NCBI RefSeq assembly: GCF_022828475.1
Contig: NZ_CP059557.1
Span: 5,565,470-5,629,469 of the forward strand
Source of the DNA: Saccharopolyspora gloriosae
GTDB taxonomy: Bacteria; Actinomycetota; Actinomycetes; Mycobacteriales; Pseudonocardiaceae
Reading direction: 5' to 3'
DNA length: 64,000 nt
Shown here: in pieces, positions 27,000 through 62,455 of the stretch
How the letters are laid out: every line of letters starts with the position of its first letter
How positions within the stretch are numbered: position 1 is the stretch's first letter
Translations under genes and position numbers: made by a program
Notes under the pieces: generated by a model
Database searches by the model: none
What the model was told of the DNA's origin: nothing
What the model saw: the letters and a program-made list of their open reading frames with translations, nothing else

Positions 27000-27070
27000 G
27001 CGGGCGTAGCTCAATGGTAGAGCCCCAGTCTTCCAAACTGGCTACGCGGGTTCGATTCCCGTCGCCCGCT
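27000..27070 (+). tRNA. tRNA-Gly (anticodon TCC)
   Basis: 71 nt: acceptor GCGGGCG/CGCCCGC, D arm GCTC/GAGC, anticodon stem CCAGT/ACTGG around CTTCCAA, and T arm GCGGG-TTCGATT-CCCGT. Discriminator T; CCA is not encoded. Confidence 0.95.
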
Positions 27071-27134: not shown

Positions 27135-27719
27135 GGGGGCCGAGCCCCTGTGAACCCCACGGTGCGGTCGCGGCTGAAGTGGGGAGCGGTGAGTTTTCCT
27201 TGGTCCTGGCCTGGGCAACGGGTTGTTCTGTTCGGGCAGAGCTGGGGCGGAGCCGAGCCCCCATGAACCCCGTGAATCCCGTGGTGCCATCGCGCCTGAA
27301 GTGGGGGCGGTGAGTCTTCTTTGGTCCAGGCCTGGGCAACGGGTTGTTCTGTTCGGGCAGAGCTGGGGCGGAGCCGAGCCCCATGAACCCCGTGGTGCCA
27401 TCGCGCCTGAAATGGGGGCGGTGAGTCTTCCTTGGTCCCGGCCTGGGCAACGGGCCGTTCTGTTCGGGCAGAGCTGGGGCGGGACCGAGCCCCCATGAAC
27501 GGGGCCGAGCCCCGTAGACCTCGTGGTGCGGTCGCGTCTGAAGTAGGTGGTGGTGGGGCTTCCTTGTTCTCGGGATGGGCGACGGGCTGCTTGTTGGGGA
27601 GGGCTGGGGCGGGGGCTAGCCCATGAGGCCCGTGAGCGCGTGGGGCGGTCGCGGCTGAAGTGGGGCGATGGGGTCTTTTTGTTTTCGGGCTGGGTGTCGG
27701 GGTTTTGGGCTGGTTTTGG
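27135..27719. repeat. Degenerate tandem array of about five units of 110-130 bp
   Basis: Each unit holds, in order, a CCGAGCCCC block, CCCGTGGTGCCATCGCGCC or a variant, TGAAGTGGGGGCGGTGAGTC and GGCCTGGGCAACGGGTTG. CGAGCCC-type blocks fall near 27141, 27254, 27375, 27486 and 27615. Units two and three are nearly identical, while the outer units are worn. The plus strand becomes rich in G and T towards the right end. Frames across it give repetitive low-complexity peptides and are probably not genes. It begins just after tRNA-Gly and stops at the racemase gene. Confidence 0.8.
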
Positions 27720-46348: not shown

Positions 46349-49300
46349 ATGAGCATCGAGATGCCCGACGAGGTCAAGTGGCTGCTGCCGATCGTCGTCG
46401 GTCAGTCCTGGCCGGAGGGTGACGAGGACGCGCTGCGCAGGCTTGCCGACGCGTGGCGTGCCGCCGAGGACGGCATCGAAGGCGTCACCGGGGACGCGAA
46501 CGGCGGTGCGAGCCAGTCGCTCGGCGGCATGGAAGGCCAGACGCACGACGCGTTCGAGAAGCTCTGGAAGGACATCGGCGACGGCGGTGAGGCCGCACTG
46601 CCGAAGCTCCAGGAGGCGTGCGCCCAGCTCGGACAGGGCTGCGACGACGCGGCGCTGGACGTGGAGCACACCAAGCTGACCATCATCGCCTCGCTGATCG
46701 CGCTCGCGATCCAGATCGCCGCGATGATCGCCAGCGCCGCGTTCAGCTTCGGCGCCTCCACGGCGGGCATCCCCATCGCCCAAGGCATCACCCGCACCGT
46801 GGTGATGCAGATCTTCAAGCAACTGGTGCTGAGCATCGCCAAGAACGTGGCCATCGAGGTCGCCACGTCCATGGCGATCGAGGCCGCCGTGCAGGGCATC
46901 CAGATCGCCTCCGGTGAGCGCAAGGGCCTCGACGGCGGCAAGTTCAAGGACGCGGCGATCAGCGGGGCCATCGGCGGTGCCGTCGGCGGCGTGTTCGAGG
47001 GCGTCGGGAACGTGGCGGCGCGCAAGGCCGCCGGGGCCGTCGGCGACGCGGCGGGTGACGCCGTGGGCGACGCCGCGGGCAACGCGGCGAGTTCGGCGGG
47101 CCGGGCGGCCGGGGACGCGGCGGGCAGTGCCGCCGGGTCCGCGGGCCGGGCCGCCGGGGACGCTGCGGGAGACGCCGCAGCGGCGGCCGGTGAGAGCGCG
47201 GCCCAGAACGTCGGTGCGACCGCGCTCAAGGAAGGCGCCAGCGGTGCCGCCCAAGGCGCCATCGGCAGCGTCGCCGAGCAGCTCATCACCGAGGGCGAGG
47301 TCGACTGGAGCGAGGTCGGCACCGGCGCGATGTCCGGCGGCGCCACCGGCGCGGGAATGGGCGCGGGCGGCGCGGCGCTCTCGAACCACTTCAACGCCCC
47401 CGACGTGGGCGACGTGGGCGGATCCGGGGAGGGGAGCTCCTCGCCGGGCTCATCCGGCGAGAGCGGGGCGTCCGGGAGCGAGAGCAGGGCGTCCGGGAGC
47501 GACGCCGGCGACGGGAGTTCGTCCGGGAGTTCGTCCGCGCAGAGCGATACCGGCGGTTCCTCCGGCGAGGCCGGTGACGCGTCGAGCTCGACGTCCTCCG
47601 GCAGCACGGCGTCCGCCACCACGGACGGCGGATCGTCCGGCGATTCGTCCGGCACGAGCAGCGAGACCGATTCCGGTTCGGACAGCGGATCGTCGGCGTC
47701 TCGACCGTCCATTGAGGACATGCTTTCCGGTGACTCGTCCACGGCGGGCGCCGATTCGAGCGCGGGCTCCGGTTCGTCCGGTACCGACGGATCCGCGTCC
47801 GACGGCGGCTCGTCCGCCGCCGACGGCGGCCGTTCATCGAGCGACGGCGGCTCGACCTCCTCCGACGGTGCTTCCGGTTCGCCCGACAGCGGTTCGAGGT
47901 CGTCCGCCGAAGATTCGGGTTCAGCAAGCGACCCCGGGTCCCGCTCCGGCGACAGCGACTCCGCGTCCCGCTCTTCCGGCGACGGCGACTCCGGGTCCCG
48001 CTCTTCCGGCGACAGCGACTCCGCGTCCCGCTCTTCCAGTGACGGCGATGCCAGCGGGTCCCGCTCGTCCAGCGACGGAGCGTCGTCCTCCGGCACCCCC
48101 GATGGCCAGAGCACTCGCTCTGCTGCCACCGACTCCCCTGCCGCGTCCGACGGCGGTTCACCACGAACGTCGGATTCCACGCCTTCGGCCGATTCCGGGC
48201 CGGATTCCAGGTCGTCCGCCGACGGCGGCGGTCCGTCGACCACGTCCACCGACGGCGGCTCCCGCGCCGACACCGCCGCGACCGGCTCCTCCGGCGACGG
48301 CGGCCCGTCCTCCACGTCGGACGGTGGATCATCCGCAGCGGGCAGGCCGGATTCGAGCGGATCCGGCCAGTCCGGCACACCGAGCCCGGACACCGGCGGT
48401 TCTGCGGAACCTCGAGGTTCCGATGCTTCCGGTGGTTCCACTCCCGGCAACTCGGACGCGCCCGGAACCTCCGGTGGCCCCGAGCACACGAGCGGGTCCG
48501 AGAGTTCCGAGAGTTCCGGCAACTCCGAGACCCCCGGGTCCGCGAACTCCGGGAACTCCGGCGGTTCCGGGACCACTCCGAGCGAATCGGGCTCGGGCTC
48601 CGGCGGATCCGCAGGTGGCACGGGATCGATGCCGCACGGTGGCGGCGATTCCACCCGCACCCAGCCCTCCGGCCCCGCGAGCACCACGTCAGCCTCCAAT
48701 GTGGACGCTCCGGCACGTCCGGCGGAGCCCGCGGTCGCCCCCGCGCCCGCGGCGCAAGCCGGTGCGGGCCGCGGCGATCAGGGCACGACCGCAGGTGGCG
48801 GCGGCGCGATGGGCGCCCCGCCCGCAGGCGGCGCACCCGGCGGCGCCGGTACGCCCGGTGCGGGAGGCAACCGGCCCGGCTCCGGCGGAAGCTGGACCGG
48901 CACCTCGGGCACTCCCGGTGCCGCCGGCCGTCCCGCCGGTGGTGACGGCCCCCGCACCGACGGCCCGCGCCCCGGCGGTCCGCGTTCCGACCGCCCGCTC
49001 GCCCCCTCCGCACGAGGCGCGGACGCCCCCGCACGCCCCGACGGCAGTCGCACCTCCCCGCCCCAGCACTCCCCCGGCGGCCACCAACAGCCCGGCGGAC
49101 GCCACACCGACATCCCCGGCCAGCGCCCCGCTGGAGCGCACCCCGACGGCCCGCCCACCCGGCACCCGAACAGCCCGAACCATCCCGGGACGTCCGGCCG
49201 CCCGGAAGGAGCAGGGCAGCGGCCCGGCCCGACCCAGCCGCAGCCGCGCCCGGACGGCGCCGGACGGCCGCAGCAACCGGCCCCGGACACGCGATCTCCC

Positions 49301-51388
49301 AGCGACCGGCCTCCGGGCAACCGCACACCCGACGCCGGAACTCCCGGCCCCCGCCCGGATTCCGCGCCCACGCCGGAGAGCTCCCCGCGCCACCAGTCGC
49401 CCGACGCCCGCACCGGAACGCGCCAGGACGGAGCTGACCCCGCTCCCGCACGCCCTCGCGAAACGACGCAGCCGGACACGCGGAACTCACCGACGTCGGA
49501 TTCCCCGGCCACCCGCCCGGATTCCACTCACTCCGACGGCGCACGAGCCGACGGGCCGGCGCACTCCGACGGCCGCCACTCCACCGACGCGCGTCCCGAC
49601 CGACCGAACGACGGTCCGGAACAGCGGCCGCACGGCGGTGCGGAGCAACCGGACCAGCGCCCGCACGACGGCGACCGGCAGCACCAGGACGCCGAACCCG
49701 GCACGCCCGAACGCCGGCACCAGCTCGACCAGGCCGAGGCCACCCGCGACCAAACTCCGAGCGGCTCGTCGTACCACAACGACCCGAACATGCGGGATCT
49801 CGCGCAACGCGTCCCTGACGACGGCGTGCACCACACCGTCGACGTGCACGCCTTGCCCGACGGCCGAGTCCGCGTCGGCGACAACACCTTCAGCGCCAAG
49901 GAATTCGCGGACATGCTGCGCCGCGACCCCGCCTACGACGGCAAACCGATCCGCCTCCTGTCCTGCGACGCGGGAACCAGCGGCCTCGCCCGCGACCTCT
50001 CCCGCGAACTCGGCGTCCCCGTCACCGCACCCCGCGGACTGGCGTGGACCGACGGCAACGGCCGAGTCTTCGCCTCCGACATGGGACCCGACGGCCGCCC
50101 GGGCTGGCCCCCGAACGGCGACTGGGACACCCACCACCCCGACGGCACCGACACCCCGGCCGGCAACGACACCCCGGCCGGCAACGACGGCTTCCACCCG
50201 CCCCAGGACGGCGAAGACCCGGGCACCGCCCCGGACGACGCGGAGGCGCGGGCAGCGCAGGCCGGCTGGGAAGAGAGCGAAGCAGAACGGCGCGGGGCTG
50301 CTGATCCGTACAACGAGCCGTACATCCCGAAGGACGCGGAACACGGGTTCCAGGTCGAAGAGATCGCGGAAGAACGCGTAACCCGCGATGCCGACGGTTT
50401 GATCGACACCGTCGACGGGAAGCCCGTTCACGCCTATGTTCGCGATTCGATCGAGAGCCGCCGGAAGAGCATCGTCGACGCCACGGACGAGAACAAGCAG
50501 GTCAAAAATCCCAAAAAGGCACCGTTCGCGCCGAATGACGACCGACGTGCCCCCTACAGCGCCAAGTCCCTGGGAACGAAGGCCGGCGCGGTCAACGCCC
50601 TGGTCCTCGATCGTCGAACCGGACTCGTATTCGAAGGAATCAACGGCCGGCAGGGCAATGCGGTACCGACATCGCTCACCGACGATGGTGGACGACCTGC
50701 GACTCGCCAGGACGCGGCGGGGAATCAGTTCCCCCTGACCCCGCACGACCTGTTGCACCCCGCGCTTCGAGAACAGATCTCCCGGATGGCGGAAAATCCG
50801 GGCAGAGATCTCGCCGACATCAAACCTGGAGAATTTCCGCATCGCGACATTCCCCACCGGCACGGCGAGGTCAAGGCCATCGACAGCCTGCTCAAGCAAC
50901 GCGAGGAAAGCGCCGCGGCTGAGGCACGACGAAGCGGGGTCGGCACCGACAAGATCGAGGTGATCACAAGGGACGACCGGCAGGTGGAAATCATTCCGAT
51001 CTCGCCGGGTGAACTTCAGGGCGTGCTCAACGATCTCTCGGTGGATGCACGGTTCACCTTCAAGACTCCCCCGGAGGATGTGGCCCCGTGCTGCGCGAAC
51101 TGCGCCAGGATCGTCAGCGGCCCCGAATCCCTTCCTGAGAATGTGCGGGACGCGGCAAACCTGTCTCACGGAGCGAAGATGGGGGCCGGCGGCTTCACCG
51201 CCGGGGTGCACTCAGACAGCACGAACTTGGACCCCGACGCGACCAACCCCAACCGCTCGCACACCGACGTGTCCAACCCGGATTACCATGGTGTCTTCAA
51301 AGAGCAAGATTCGATACGAGCGCGAAGGGCCGCGGAGCAAGCGGAGTCCGCCCGGCAGCAAGCAGCACGATCAGGAGACGCAAGTTGA
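46349..51388 (+). CDS. Polymorphic toxin: CpnT-like N-terminus, long low-complexity linker, YwqJ-type deaminase C-terminus
   Basis: 1679 residues. Residues 1-110 (DEVKWLLPIVVGQSWPEGDE) match the WXG100-like N-terminal domain of CpnT-type type VII substrates. A hydrophobic, Gly/Ala-rich segment (about 110-350) may insert in membranes. Then follow a Ser/Asp/Gly linker (about 350-780) and a Pro/Arg/Thr-rich linker (about 780-1140). A conserved pre-toxin-like domain is at 1150-1250 (IRLLSCDAGTSGLARDL). The C-terminal deaminase domain has His1505-Gly-Glu1507 and Cys1582-x-x-Cys1585 in the PCCANC stretch, as in YwqJ-related nucleic-acid/nucleotide deaminases. The immunity gene overlaps its stop. 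Confidence 0.88.
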   Translation: MSIEMPDEVKWLLPIVVGQSWPEGDEDALRRLADAWRAAEDGIEGVTGDANGGASQSLGGMEGQTHDAFEKLWKDIGDGGEAALPKLQEACAQLGQGCDDAALDVEHTKLTIIASLIALAIQIAAMIASAAFSFGASTAGIPIAQGITRTVVMQIFKQLVLSIAKNVAIEVATSMAIEAAVQGIQIASGERKGLDGGKFKDAAISGAIGGAVGGVFEGVGNVAARKAAGAVGDAAGDAVGDAAGNAASSAGRAAGDAAGSAAGSAGRAAGDAAGDAAAAAGESAAQNVGATALKEGASGAAQGAIGSVAEQLITEGEVDWSEVGTGAMSGGATGAGMGAGGAALSNHFNAPDVGDVGGSGEGSSSPGSSGESGASGSESRASGSDAGDGSSSGSSSAQSDTGGSSGEAGDASSSTSSGSTASATTDGGSSGDSSGTSSETDSGSDSGSSASRPSIEDMLSGDSSTAGADSSAGSGSSGTDGSASDGGSSAADGGRSSSDGGSTSSDGASGSPDSGSRSSAEDSGSASDPGSRSGDSDSASRSSGDGDSGSRSSGDSDSASRSSSDGDASGSRSSSDGASSSGTPDGQSTRSAATDSPAASDGGSPRTSDSTPSADSGPDSRSSADGGGPSTTSTDGGSRADTAATGSSGDGGPSSTSDGGSSAAGRPDSSGSGQSGTPSPDTGGSAEPRGSDASGGSTPGNSDAPGTSGGPEHTSGSESSESSGNSETPGSANSGNSGGSGTTPSESGSGSGGSAGGTGSMPHGGGDSTRTQPSGPASTTSASNVDAPARPAEPAVAPAPAAQAGAGRGDQGTTAGGGGAMGAPPAGGAPGGAGTPGAGGNRPGSGGSWTGTSGTPGAAGRPAGGDGPRTDGPRPGGPRSDRPLAPSARGADAPARPDGSRTSPPQHSPGGHQQPGGRHTDIPGQRPAGAHPDGPPTRHPNSPNHPGTSGRPEGAGQRPGPTQPQPRPDGAGRPQQPAPDTRSPSDRPPGNRTPDAGTPGPRPDSAPTPESSPRHQSPDARTGTRQDGADPAPARPRETTQPDTRNSPTSDSPATRPDSTHSDGARADGPAHSDGRHSTDARPDRPNDGPEQRPHGGAEQPDQRPHDGDRQHQDAEPGTPERRHQLDQAEATRDQTPSGSSYHNDPNMRDLAQRVPDDGVHHTVDVHALPDGRVRVGDNTFSAKEFADMLRRDPAYDGKPIRLLSCDAGTSGLARDLSRELGVPVTAPRGLAWTDGNGRVFASDMGPDGRPGWPPNGDWDTHHPDGTDTPAGNDTPAGNDGFHPPQDGEDPGTAPDDAEARAAQAGWEESEAERRGAADPYNEPYIPKDAEHGFQVEEIAEERVTRDADGLIDTVDGKPVHAYVRDSIESRRKSIVDATDENKQVKNPKKAPFAPNDDRRAPYSAKSLGTKAGAVNALVLDRRTGLVFEGINGRQGNAVPTSLTDDGGRPATRQDAAGNQFPLTPHDLLHPALREQISRMAENPGRDLADIKPGEFPHRDIPHRHGEVKAIDSLLKQREESAAAEARRSGVGTDKIEVITRDDRQVEIIPISPGELQGVLNDLSVDARFTFKTPPEDVAPCCANCARIVSGPESLPENVRDAANLSHGAKMGAGGFTAGVHSDSTNLDPDATNPNRSHTDVSNPDYHGVFKEQDSIRARRAAEQAESARQQAARSGDAS

Positions 51389-59244: not shown

Positions 59245-59727
59245 TCAGCGTTGCGTACCCGCCGTGTCGGAGAGCATGCGCAGTGCGCTGATCAGGCCGT
59301 CGATCAGTTCGCCCTCCCGGAAGGAGGCGACCATGGTCATCAGTGCCAGCTGGCAGCTGCGGTCGGGCACGCGGCGCTTCGACTCCGCGCCGGTGACGAT
59401 CTCGACGGCGCGTTGCTGCGGGGACACCGCCAGCAGCACGCCCTCTTCCGCGCGGGGGCCGAGGTTGGCGTGCAGCGCGGCGGCGGACTCGCGGGTCTCC
59501 TCGCCGAGGTCGCCGAGGTAGATGGCGAACTCCAGGCCGGTGCTGCGGCTGGAGAGGGTCAGCGCCTCGTCGAGCCGGGCGAGCTGGCCGGTGCTGAACG
59601 GCAGGTGCCGTCCCTCCGGCTTGACCCGGCGCGCGATGGACAGCCGACCGGTGGCCGTCACGGCCTCGCCCGCCGCCAGTTCCTGTTCACCGGATCGGTT
59701 CGCGCCGGTGATCTCACCAGTTCCCAC
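59245..59727 (-). CDS. DUF5130 family protein
   Basis: 160 residues from the GTG at 59727, 5 nt after GGGGAGG. Blocks such as LPFSTGQLARLDEAL and EFAIYLGDLGEETRESAAAL resemble DUF5130/TPM-like domains of unknown function found beside pepN in actinobacteria. It overlaps the upstream small membrane gene by 14 bp, so the two are coupled. Confidence 0.82.
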   Translation of the reverse strand: MGTGEITGANRSGEQELAAGEAVTATGRLSIARRVKPEGRHLPFSTGQLARLDEALTLSSRSTGLEFAIYLGDLGEETRESAAALHANLGPRAEEGVLLAVSPQQRAVEIVTGAESKRRVPDRSCQLALMTMVASFREGELIDGLISALRMLSDTAGTQR

Positions 59728-59989
59728 GTGCGCCTCCCCGGTCGGTGCTGTGCGTGTGCTCAACGGCGTCGGAGGCCGTCTCGGCCGAGTCCAGGTCACC
59801 CGGCGGAGCCGTGCTCACACCTGCCGGATTGGCAACCCAGAACACGGGAGCGAACTCCCAGTCCTGGCCTGCGCGATAACGGGTACGGGTCAGACTCGAC
59901 CGGAAGGCGATCACCGTGACCAGGAGGTACACGGTCGCTGGGATCACCGCCAGCACGAGGAAGGTCTCCACCACAGTCACGCTCAGCAC
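59714..59989 (-). CDS. Small single-pass membrane protein upstream of DUF5130
   Basis: 91 residues, GTG start at 59989. One N-terminal helix (VVETFLVLAVIPATVYLLVTVIAF split over residues 5-28), then RYRAGQDWEFAPVFWVANP, a block seen in uncharacterised actinobacterial membrane proteins, and a charged tail. Function unknown. Its 3' end overlaps the DUF5130 start. Confidence 0.72.
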   Translation of the reverse strand: MLSVTVVETFLVLAVIPATVYLLVTVIAFRSSLTRTRYRAGQDWEFAPVFWVANPAGVSTAPPGDLDSAETASDAVEHTHSTDRGGARGNW

Positions 59990-60831
59990 GGTAGCCGATC
60001 ACGCCGCCGCATGGGATGACACCACCTCGGCCGGTCGTGTTCGCGCGCGATCCGCGGCCGGGTGGATCTCGCGGGGAGACTCGAGCTCGGCGAAACCCGG
60101 CCCTGTGGACGAACCCAGGGTAGTCGTCGCGCGATTGCCGACGGGAAAGCGGAGGATTCCCTCCGCTGAATCTTCACTACCTGCGAAAATGCGTGAATCA
60201 GCTGGTTCGGCAAAACGGCCCGGCCCGAAATCCGGTATGCCGCATACGTGGTGAATCGCCGCCGCGAACCTCGCGAAGCCGTGCGAACAACCGCTCAATT
60301 CCTAGTAAAAATCCCATACCGCCGAACGAGTGAACGAGCACCGTTCTTGACACGAACGCGGATTCATGCGAGGAAGCTCCCATTGAGCCCACCGGCCGCT
60401 CCAGGTCGTCACCGCAGCCCAGAAACCGCCACTGCGCTGCGAATTCACTTCGCACTTCCGCCCCGCCCGCACCTCTCGGACACCGACGGCGACCCTTTCG
60501 CCCGCCGATCCCGACGCCGACGGCCGGAATGCGACACCTGGCTACGACAGGTAGGCAGCACGCATCAGTTCAGTGACTGAAAGTGACCACTCCGGCCCTG
60601 AGCAGGACAGGGGCTACCGAAAGTCACTAGTCAAGCGTGTTGCGCCTCACGTAATGTAACTCTTTTAGAGTAATCAGCGCCGCCGAATGGAGCCCATCCA
60701 GAAGGTCGCAGCAGGCGGCAAGTTGGCGGCTTGTTTGAAAGCTCCCGCGCTTCTAGTTTTTCACCTGTATGGGTCTTGCATATTTGATCACTAGGCCCAT
60801 AACTCGTCTATTAGCCTGCGGGAGGCACACC
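59990..60831. other. Long intergenic region (842 bp), AT-richer at its right end
   Basis: No convincing gene: short frames on both strands lack family features. From about 60570 the DNA becomes clearly less GC-rich. It holds inverted repeats AGTGACT (60572) / AGTCACT (60622) and ACTCT-TTT-AGAGT (60659-60671), and long T and A runs. It ends in the GGGAGG site of the repeat-protein gene and probably contains a long regulated leader for it. Confidence 0.5.
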
Positions 60832-61761
60832 ATGTCGATCATCGAAACCGCCGCTCGGCGTAATGTTGGCACTAATTCCTTCAATGCGCAGCCCCTTGTT
60901 GAACACGGTGCGCACACAGCCACTGGCGTCCGCATCAGCGGCACCGAACGCGGCGTCCGCATCAGCTCAGTCGACCGCGGCGTCCGCATCAGCTCACAAG
61001 CCGGCGTGCGGATCAGCGGTTCCGGGCGCGGCGTGCGCATCAGTTCCCTCGGTGTCCGCATCAGCGGTGAACAGCGCGGGGTCCGGATCAGCTCACAGGC
61101 AGGCGTGCGGATCAGCGGTATCGACCGCGGCATGCGCATCAGCGGAGACCACGGATCGAGGCGTCCCGCTGCGCGGCATGGCGTCCGCATCAGCGGACAG
61201 GACCGTGGCGTGCGGATCAGCCGGGCCGAGCGAGGCGTCCGCATCAGCGGAGCCGACCGTGGCGTGCGGATCAGCGGCGAACAGCGAGGCGTGCGCATCA
61301 GCGGTGAACAGCGCGGGGTCCGGATCAGCGGTGAACAGCACGGGGTCCGAATCAGCGGCGAACAGCGCGGGGTCCGGATCAGCTCACAGGCAGGCGTGCG
61401 CATCAGCGGAGACCACGGATCGAGGCGTCCCGCTGCGTGGCATGGCGTCCGCATCAGCGGACAGGACCGTGGCGTGCGGATCAGCGGCGCGGATCGCGGA
61501 GTGCGAATCAGCGCACGGCACGGAGTGCGGATCAGCGGCCAAGACCGTGGCGTGCGGATCAGCGGGGCCGTGCGAGGTGTCCGCATCAGCGGCGAACAGC
61601 GTGGCGTCCGCATCAGCGGAGCCGACCGCGGCGTCCGCATCAGCGGCGAACAGCGAGGCGTCCGCATCAGCGGAGCCGACCGCGGCGTCCGCATCAGCGG
61701 CCAAGACCGCGGCGTGCGGATCAGCGGACGGAGCGCCGATCAGCTCGCCGCGGTGGCCTGA
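60832..61761 (+). CDS. GVRIS-repeat protein (29 tandem repeats), unknown family
   Basis: 309 residues from the ATG at 60832 (GGAGG 6 nt upstream). About 31 unique N-terminal residues (MSIIETAARRNVGTNSF...) are followed by 29 GVRIS/GMRIS units. Most have a nine-residue period such as GVRISGADR or GVRISGEQR, with shorter (GVRISSQA) and longer (DHGSRRPAARH) variants. The end is RSADQLAAVA. There is no signal peptide, membrane helix or cysteine. Codons for Gly, Val and Arg vary synonymously between repeats while the peptide is kept, so it is translated and selected. Alternating V-R-I-S strands with polar turns suggest a beta-solenoid or a multi-core precursor. Function unknown. Confidence 0.8.
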   Translation: MSIIETAARRNVGTNSFNAQPLVEHGAHTATGVRISGTERGVRISSVDRGVRISSQAGVRISGSGRGVRISSLGVRISGEQRGVRISSQAGVRISGIDRGMRISGDHGSRRPAARHGVRISGQDRGVRISRAERGVRISGADRGVRISGEQRGVRISGEQRGVRISGEQHGVRISGEQRGVRISSQAGVRISGDHGSRRPAAWHGVRISGQDRGVRISGADRGVRISARHGVRISGQDRGVRISGAVRGVRISGEQRGVRISGADRGVRISGEQRGVRISGADRGVRISGQDRGVRISGRSADQLAAVA

Positions 61762-61777: not shown

Positions 61778-62455
61778 TCACGCCGCGGATTCGCCCAGGT
61801 AAGGCAGCCACAGCGGGTCCGTCTCGGACAGCCCCGCGATCAGCCGCCAGTGCCTGCCGCGCGGTGCGTGCGGGGCCACCGGCAGTTGCCAGCCGAGTTC
61901 GCTGAGCGTCTTGTCGGCCTTGCGGTGGTTGCACTTGGTGCAGCAGGCCACGCAGTTCTCCCACTCGTGCGGCCCGCCTCGGCTGCGCGGCACCACGTGA
62001 TCGATCGTCTCGGCTCGAACGCCGCAGTACACGCAGCGATGCCCGTCGCGGTGCATTAATGCGGAGCGGGTGAGCGGAACCCGGCCTCGATAAGGCACCC
62101 GTACGAAGTTGCTCAGCCGGATCACCGACGGCACCGCATGGCTGCTCGTCGCCGAGTGCAGCGTCATGCCCGCCGAGTCACCGTGGACGACCTCCGCCTT
62201 ACCGCAGACCAGCAGCACGATCGCCCTGCGCAGCGGAAGCGCGGTCAGCGGTTCGAAGGTCGTGTTGAGCAACAGCACCCGCCGCTTGCGCCACGGGGGT
62301 ACCGGATTGCCCGACTGCACGCTGGGCTGGACCGGTGCTTGGCACAGCCCTGCCCGAGACGCGAGCCCTGTGGCCGCGCCTGTCGGAGTCGGTATTCGGT
62401 CGTGCACGCGACCACCTCCACCGGTTGGCAAGAACCAGTCGACCACAATCGACAC
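61778..62455 (-). CDS. HNH endonuclease
   Basis: 225 residues, GTG start at 62455. After a variable N-terminus comes VLLLNTTFEPLTALPLRRA, typical of actinobacterial HNH proteins. The nuclease core is CVYCGVRAETIDHVVPRSRG followed by CTKCNHRK: two CxxC zinc pairs around the HNH beta-beta-alpha motif. The biological role is unknown; an orthologous HNH gene lies near pepN in mycobacteria. It converges with the GVRIS-repeat gene, leaving only 16 bp. Confidence 0.9.
   Translation of the reverse strand: MSIVVDWFLPTGGGGRVHDRIPTPTGAATGLASRAGLCQAPVQPSVQSGNPVPPWRKRRVLLLNTTFEPLTALPLRRAIVLLVCGKAEVVHGDSAGMTLHSATSSHAVPSVIRLSNFVRVPYRGRVPLTRSALMHRDGHRCVYCGVRAETIDHVVPRSRGGPHEWENCVACCTKCNHRKADKTLSELGWQLPVAPHAPRGRHWRLIAGLSETDPLWLPYLGESAA

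Follow-up and report, generated by a model that had tools for sequence, protein, structure and literature searches.

Three hexapeptides, 18 residues in all, form each coil of the left-handed parallel beta-helix found in LpxD, LpxA, NeuD and DapD. Curli CsgA is a functional amyloid of tandem beta-strand repeats, and the yeast alpha-factor is a multi-core peptide precursor. Bacterial amyloid signalling motifs (BASS) have been described (PMC7889193, available part of the text), and for the thiovarsolins the available part of the report on them (PMC6511847) gives as source a Streptomyces precursor whose core is repeated.

The gene analysed here, from Saccharopolyspora gloriosae, lies in a window of 64,000 nucleotides (the whole stretch of DNA studied) and codes for an array of short units that are named below by their spelling (GVRIS in the window; GTRVT, SVRIT and others elsewhere). 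GTRVT arrays resemble the left-handed beta-helix in their six-residue units and three-unit phase, but scores were far below the curated cut-offs, the enzyme part is absent, Arg is present in every unit, and GVRIS and SVRIT units are not six residues long. With CsgA and BASS the arrays share short beta-prone segments, polar or glycine turns and near-identical copies suited to homotypic stacking; however, BASS proteins carry one motif each whereas array proteins hold many units in one chain, and the BASS partners NLR and BELL were not among the five classified neighbours in the window (PepN, DUF5130, CtaJ, HNH and S9). The thiovarsolin precursor, as far as the available text describes it (PMC6511847), is similar in combining a leader with a repeated short Arg-containing core and in coming from actinomycetes, but it has at most five repeats and is linked to YcaO, TfuA and other enzymes, whereas the arrays reach 51 units and no maturation gene was present among the same five neighbours. 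A literature search on the units and on repeat families returned nothing on the array gene in the parts of the sources that were available.

The array gene and selection on its unit

The array gene occupies positions 60832..61761 of the forward strand (309 codons plus stop). Sequence comparison delimited a leader of residues 1-31 (60832..60924, +), followed by the repeat array of residues 32-298 (60925..61725, +; unit calls and Tandem Repeats Finder) and by an 11-residue C-terminal tail, GRSADQLAAVA (61726..61758, +), recognised from the translation and from comparison with other genera. Tandem Repeats Finder independently called 60925-61736 as a tandem repeat. The frame contains 28 GVRIS units and one GMRIS, the first beginning at residue 32, and the spacing between unit starts was nine residues in 21 of 28 cases, eight in four, 17 in two and seven in one. 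Translation and unit count thus confirmed what a sequence-only reading of this DNA had described, a 309-residue product with a leader of about 31 residues and 29 units mostly nine residues long. Codons varied at Gly (GGC, GGG, GGT and GGA in 21, 4, 2 and 2 units), Val (GTC in 16 and GTG in 12, plus one ATG) and Arg (CGC, CGG and CGA in 16, 11 and 2), and those for Ile (ATC in 29 of 29) and Ser (AGC in 28 of 29) were almost fixed.

The antisense frame (313 amino acids) and frame +3 (398 amino acids) are likewise open across most of the window array, so that openness alone proves little. The sense frame was singled out by the variation at third codon positions, by the frame and leader kept in relatives, and by a ribosome-binding site, GGGAGG (60820..60825, +), read in the sequence before the start and accompanied by similar sites in relatives. 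The leader was partly conserved among 11 Saccharopolyspora proteins and, by eye, loosely alike between genera; also by eye, the leaders appeared unlike signal peptides. In the window's genome the gene is single-copy, the protein query matching its own place only at E <= 10. The sequence-only reading had hinged on homologues that keep the frame, and relatives were found to keep both frame and leader. Judged from these comparisons, the array gene is a genuine protein-coding gene of Pseudonocardiaceae.

In unit-like stretches found by DNA similarity, differences from the local consensus per codon were considerably more frequent at position 3 (0.326) than at positions 1 and 2 (0.057 and 0.054, respectively). 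Single-base codon changes in the units comprised 3154 synonymous and 402 non-synonymous ones, corresponding to a rough omega of 0.06; this figure is based on 2063 in-frame stretches out of 2271, the 208 out of frame having been set aside. Within the 2063, position 2 was V, T or I in 95%, position 3 was R in 93% and position 4 was I or V in 93%. The codon comparison showed strong purifying selection on the unit, and the dN/dS comparison between repeats that had been proposed earlier therefore supports the claim that selection acts on the peptide.

Locus, distribution and unit types

A convergent HNH endonuclease gene (61778..62455, -), identified from the list of open reading frames, Pfam and the comparison of loci, flanks the array gene, the two stop codons being separated by 16 bp. 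On the opposite flank lies a ctaJ-type gene (59714..59989, -; NCBIfam-type classification and neighbour comparison), a housekeeping gene that serves as a marker of the locus. The window protein matched 17 of the 60 genomes of a first set, its own included, and all 10 loci obtained by scanning genome contigs belonged to Saccharopolyspora, with leader, frame and unit kept. Matches in other genera lay in the same place beside the HNH gene, some with different units, and for this reason the HNH protein was chosen as search anchor. We do not count the HNH gene itself as a component of the array system, since it is widespread without the array.

Of 150 Pseudonocardiaceae genomes, 148 had the HNH protein, and the examined set comprised 147 loci; one genome was left out, its HNH gene being located at the edge of a contig, and its array was met separately. 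An array accompanied the convergent HNH gene in 122 of the 147 loci, representing 39 of 46 genera. This count comprises 119 loci with at least two units by motif pattern and three GVRIH loci recognised on reading, and it includes, with two units, a locus (L178) truncated where its contig stops (802 bases); no such array was seen beside HNH in the remaining 25 loci. Most examined genera of this family, rich in antibiotic producers, thus keep the array gene at one place and with its own 5' element.

Outside Pseudonocardiaceae the HNH gene was found in 115 genomes, and the array was absent from all 29 HNH loci inspected there. At E <= 0.001, the GTRVT query matched 31 and the SVRIT query nine of 118 class genomes, the window's genome being in both groups. 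Four of the matched loci were looked at in the search for relatives outside the family, and three could be read: two proved to be other repeats without the unit (L248 and L250) and the third a different repeat (L257). L250 (G000:C1:5176981-5177184) is an unrelated short-period minisatellite of the window's own genome, with several frames open and the unit absent. In phages the window protein had no match by BLAST with the low-complexity filter on. The S9 peptidase was considered as a partner and rejected: it lay beside HNH in two of 12 array-free and four of eight array-bearing genomes fetched, and it adjoined HNH in 14 of 29 array-free loci of other families, and is therefore not specific.

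The 122 array loci have 11 dominant spellings, all of which fit the pattern [GS][VTI]R[IV][STNHE]. GTRVT was dominant in 54 loci, GVRIS in 30 and SVRIT in 17, followed by GIRVN and GVRVT (four each), GTRIT and GVRIH (three each), GVRVN, GVRIN and GIRVT (two each) and GVRIE (one). In the 114 loci with at least five units, the dominant unit accounted for 1832 of 1878 recognised units, a purity flattered by the motif-pattern search. As judged from these spellings, the unit is near-uniform inside a genome and different between genera. When the 12 labels ("none" being one of them) were mapped on a tree of 81 HNH proteins, for which each combination of genus and unit supplied no more than two loci, 16 changes were needed as compared to 49.3 for shuffled labels, which indicated that units are inherited, yet switching occurs. 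Thus, two genomes of one genus carry 12 GVRVT and 13 GTRVT units, respectively (L132 and L149), and within the window's genus two near-identical arrays (L002 and L003) are one extra 8-residue unit apart.

Copy number ranged from two to 51 units and spacer length was variable, the usual unit length being six residues in GTRVT genera and eight to nine in SVRIT genera, with longer spacers breaking up arrays. Among complete members the smallest is 31 residues long and holds four units; seen at two loci (L161 and L169), it consists almost solely of four six-residue GVRIN-type units, the leader being nearly absent. Mean net charge per 100 residues spanned from -1.0 in SVRIT to +16.5 in GTRVT and +25.8 in GVRIN arrays; charge is therefore not conserved, and plain charge-based binding is unlikely. 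The collection offers a natural series, with one chemical pattern in eleven spellings, that would make the evolution of self-matching beta-repeats directly testable.

Repeat phase, predicted fold and competing readings

Phase was analysed in runs of at least five GTRVT hexamers, one run per genus, in 15 of the 16 GTRVT genera. The sixth residue of these units is either Arg or a small or neutral residue, and its class tended to recur every third unit. At lag 3 the class agreed in 101 of 147 pairs against 69.7 expected, a value reached by none of 5000 shuffles, and at lag 2 in 46 of 162 against 76.7 in shuffles. Lag 3 exceeded lags 1 and 2 in 13 of the 15 genera; g31 and g62 were the exceptions, and phase slips were present in others. 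Third-position identity of the units was near flat across lags (0.43-0.48). In synonymously diverged pairs (at most one of five third positions identical) agreement was 66 of 87 at lag 3 as compared to 65 of 151 and 28 of 111 at lags 1 and 2, respectively; these counts draw on all loci and thus include related species more than once. Since lag-3 agreement survives in such pairs, the phase is held at the protein level and is no mere echo of recent duplication. The 18-residue phase of GTRVT is the best evidence obtained for three-strand rungs, which it favours. GVRIS arrays, the type of the window, showed no phase in spacer length, and their first spacer residue presented a mild lag-3 excess (74 of 124 against 61.9; four of 1000 shuffles as high; one locus per genus). 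A two-unit phase of SVRIT was discarded as recent duplication, its lag-2 excess being gone in diverged pairs.

AlphaFold2, given the window protein with 11 sequences, placed strands at most units, with a mean pLDDT of 64 and a pTM of 0.61 in the best model and mean pLDDT of 44-54 in the remaining four. The antisense product, proline-rich and run alone, yielded no strands (pLDDT 37, pTM 0.17). AlphaFold2 is reported (PMC11795689, available part of the text) to yield beta-solenoids for repeats judged disordered by other methods, and the beta model, of moderate confidence, is taken as weak evidence. Foldseek found no PDB match to it at E <= 0.001 (best 0.076; a CsgA chain ranked 25th with E 1.2), and the window protein had no match at E <= 10 among solved sequences. 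The structure prediction proposed by the sequence-only reading hence gave the strands, at modest confidence and with no fold matched in the PDB. The beta-solenoid suggested there finds its strongest support in the 18-residue phase of GTRVT, but the nine-residue geometry is not conserved and GVRIS arrays have no clear phase; its comparison with bactofilin-like or RTX-like scaffolds gained no support, as neither was among the families that the window protein matched in Pfam or NCBIfam, nor was a PDB fold matched at that threshold.

The window protein passed the Pfam whole-protein cut-offs of DNA_pol3_beta (30.4 vs. 24.4 bits) and DUF3060 (28.7 vs. 23.1 bits), with no single stretch at E <= 0.001 for either. 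DUF2345, which we take to be the VgrG spike beta-helix domain, was passed by an SVRIT protein (79.4 bits vs. a cut-off of 30.7) and scored 22.9 bits, below cut-off, with the window protein; the SVRIT protein passed the cut-offs of the unrelated DUF3540 and ChapFlgA too. These Pfam matches are read as repeat artefacts, not as kinship. No family reached its cut-off for the array proteins in NCBIfam or PADLOC-DB, the anti-phage families of the latter giving none for three array proteins even at E <= 1. In PHROGs the window protein had no match at E <= 0.1, and the GTRVT and SVRIT proteins had three and 11 weak matches of unknown function, respectively. The earlier statement that no named family has this unit consequently stands for NCBIfam and PADLOC-DB and, for Pfam, needs the qualification that two cut-offs are passed by what we regard as artefact.

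GTRVT arrays displayed weak NCBIfam similarity to the left-handed beta-helix enzymes LpxD, NeuD and DapD (best score 27.4 bits vs. a cut-off of 207), and Pfam Hexapep was not listed for the GTRVT protein. These matches disappeared in two unit-permuted controls; three reversed controls also matched a guanylyltransferase and NeuD, the latter at times more strongly than the natural sequence did, and natural GTRVT arrays also matched collagen-like adhesins, so that composition contributes to the similarity. The profile matches may thus lend the beta fold weak support. The array gene is not described convincingly by any profile library searched.

Our first choice among the readings, held tentatively, is a self-matching or self-assembling beta-repeat protein. 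Each unit would form one short amphipathic beta-strand after a Gly or Ser turn, with beta-branched residues at positions 2 and 4 and Arg at position 3, and the strands of one chain, perhaps of several, would pile up as a solenoid or a cross-beta fibre. For most GTRVT genera this would mean rungs of 18 residues, each built from three six-residue units, in which Arg occupies two corners and the small or neutral residue the third. Unequal exchange could let a whole array drift from one unit to another, as under this reading units must match each other and not a fixed outside partner. At the level of the cell the candidate roles are a scaffold, a sequestering body or a filament. A rigid solenoid is hard to reconcile with a unit length that changes from genus to genus and with arrays interrupted by longer spacers, and the member of 31 residues and four units lacks the length to form a solenoid by itself. 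A more specific version, in which we place little confidence, would be a cytosolic beta-polymer whose genus-specific unit acts as a "barcode", stacking with matching units only and making assembly private to a lineage, with concerted unit switching and a pool set by transcription from the locus-specific element and by ClpXP, acting on the ssrA mimic that the genome encodes; if true, this would add a new class to the repeat proteins of bacteria, one that is family-wide yet rebuilt between genera.

Somewhat less probable than the self-matching protein is a disordered multivalent scaffold in which the units would act as short linear motifs, each binding the pocket of a co-evolving partner, with the spacers as flexible linkers. 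The range of two to 51 copies, the variable spacers and charge around a uniform core, the lack of clear phase in GVRIS and SVRIT arrays and the small four-unit member would all suit it. However, independent motifs have no use for the 18-residue phase of GTRVT, the partner would need to track every unit switch, and no linked partner was found, the HNH and S9 neighbours occurring without the array too.

We consider unlikely the multi-core peptide precursor that the sequence-only reading had offered as its alternative, in which many short cores behind a leader would be excised, and possibly modified, as peptides with a signalling or antibiotic role. The layout of leader, repeats and short tail and the Arg in every unit are consistent with it, as are uniform genus-specific units, which would be expected of a pheromone. 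It is disfavoured by the absence of a maturation gene among the five classified neighbours (S9 also adjoins HNH in other families and in some genomes that lack the array), by the near absence of a leader in the smallest member (L161 and L169), by variable spacers that leave no fixed residue for cutting, and by the GTRVT phase, which would be pointless in a precursor.

Possible turnover signals, the 5' region and other features

The tmRNA tag of the window's genome is ADKSQREFALAA, and in each of ten further genomes the tag has either FALAA or YALAA as its last residues. Array proteins ended in [AST]LA[AGV] at 33 of 122 loci (13 genera) and in the stricter [YFL][AST]LA[AG] at 24 loci (nine genera), as compared to an LA[AGV] ending in none of 44 members of a crude set of window genes. 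At one locus (L088) the tail reads GARGDFALAA, the tag of the same genome being ANKSRADFALAA. The window protein ends in QLAAVA, not ALAA, and is thus ssrA-like loosely at most, in a position that matches the ssrA-like tails elsewhere. We infer that array proteins with such a tail may be kept short-lived in many genera, ClpXP reading the tail; natural proteins with a built-in likeness to the ssrA signal are thereby suggested in 13 genera.

The same tails allow a quite improbable reading, that of a Clp protease adaptor, competitor or sensor, whose sticky chain would load or titrate ClpXP by its ssrA-like end. It would account for the tails in the 13 genera and for their likeness to the tmRNA tags of the window's genome and the ten others, all ending in ALAA, but 89 of the 122 loci, the window's included, lack even the looser ending, and a degron may mean a short-lived protein and nothing more.

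A conserved 5' element, TTTTCACCTGTATGGGTCTTGC (60758..60779, +), was recognised by comparison of upstream regions. Its near-invariant 21-nt form, TTTCACCTGTACGGGYCTTGC, was present with at most six substitutions in the 160 nt that precede the chosen start at 114 of the 122 loci; with one locus per genus, it lay 70-75 nt before the ATG in 35 of 37 genera, and at 53 and 130 nt in the other two. The best match at L161, 130 nt before the ATG, was poor at its 3' end. In the window the element is preceded by TTGTTT (60731..60736, +) and, after 17 nt, TAGTTT (60754..60759, +), a possible -35 and -10 proposed from position and conservation only; the pair could be the promoter of the window array gene and was not reported by a consensus promoter scan of the window. 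A shared regulon was rejected, since a search of the window's genome that allowed up to three mismatches gave the 22-nt element at its own place alone. At up to two mismatches it occurred in three of 296 class genomes, namely the window's, another Pseudonocardiaceae and one of another family, and the reversed pattern in none; the copy in the other family, near a gene read by eye as RtcB-like, is taken as chance. A 9-nt inverted repeat in the 5' UTR (60768-60801) is kept, by eye, in near relatives only. Ms1 RNA was discarded as the identity of the region, its synteny differing in the available part of its description.

That the DNA or RNA repeat itself matters and not the protein, as a binding-site array, minisatellite or recombination site, is very improbable: the repeat is tandem at the DNA level and other frames are open, but changes concentrate at third codon positions, 2063 of the 2271 unit-like stretches are in frame, relatives retain the ribosome-binding site and the start, Rfam had no match in the array-gene region, and the 5' UTR gave no consensus fold across 35 genera (mean z 0.23 against plain shuffles).

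Two further features of the window were recorded. A direct repeat of about 111 bp is present in three copies at 27146-27500, just downstream of a tRNA gene (27000-27070), and an open reading frame of 1679 residues (46349-51388, +) has a long serine/glycine- and proline-rich middle, its layout resembling, by eye, that of large secreted multi-domain proteins.
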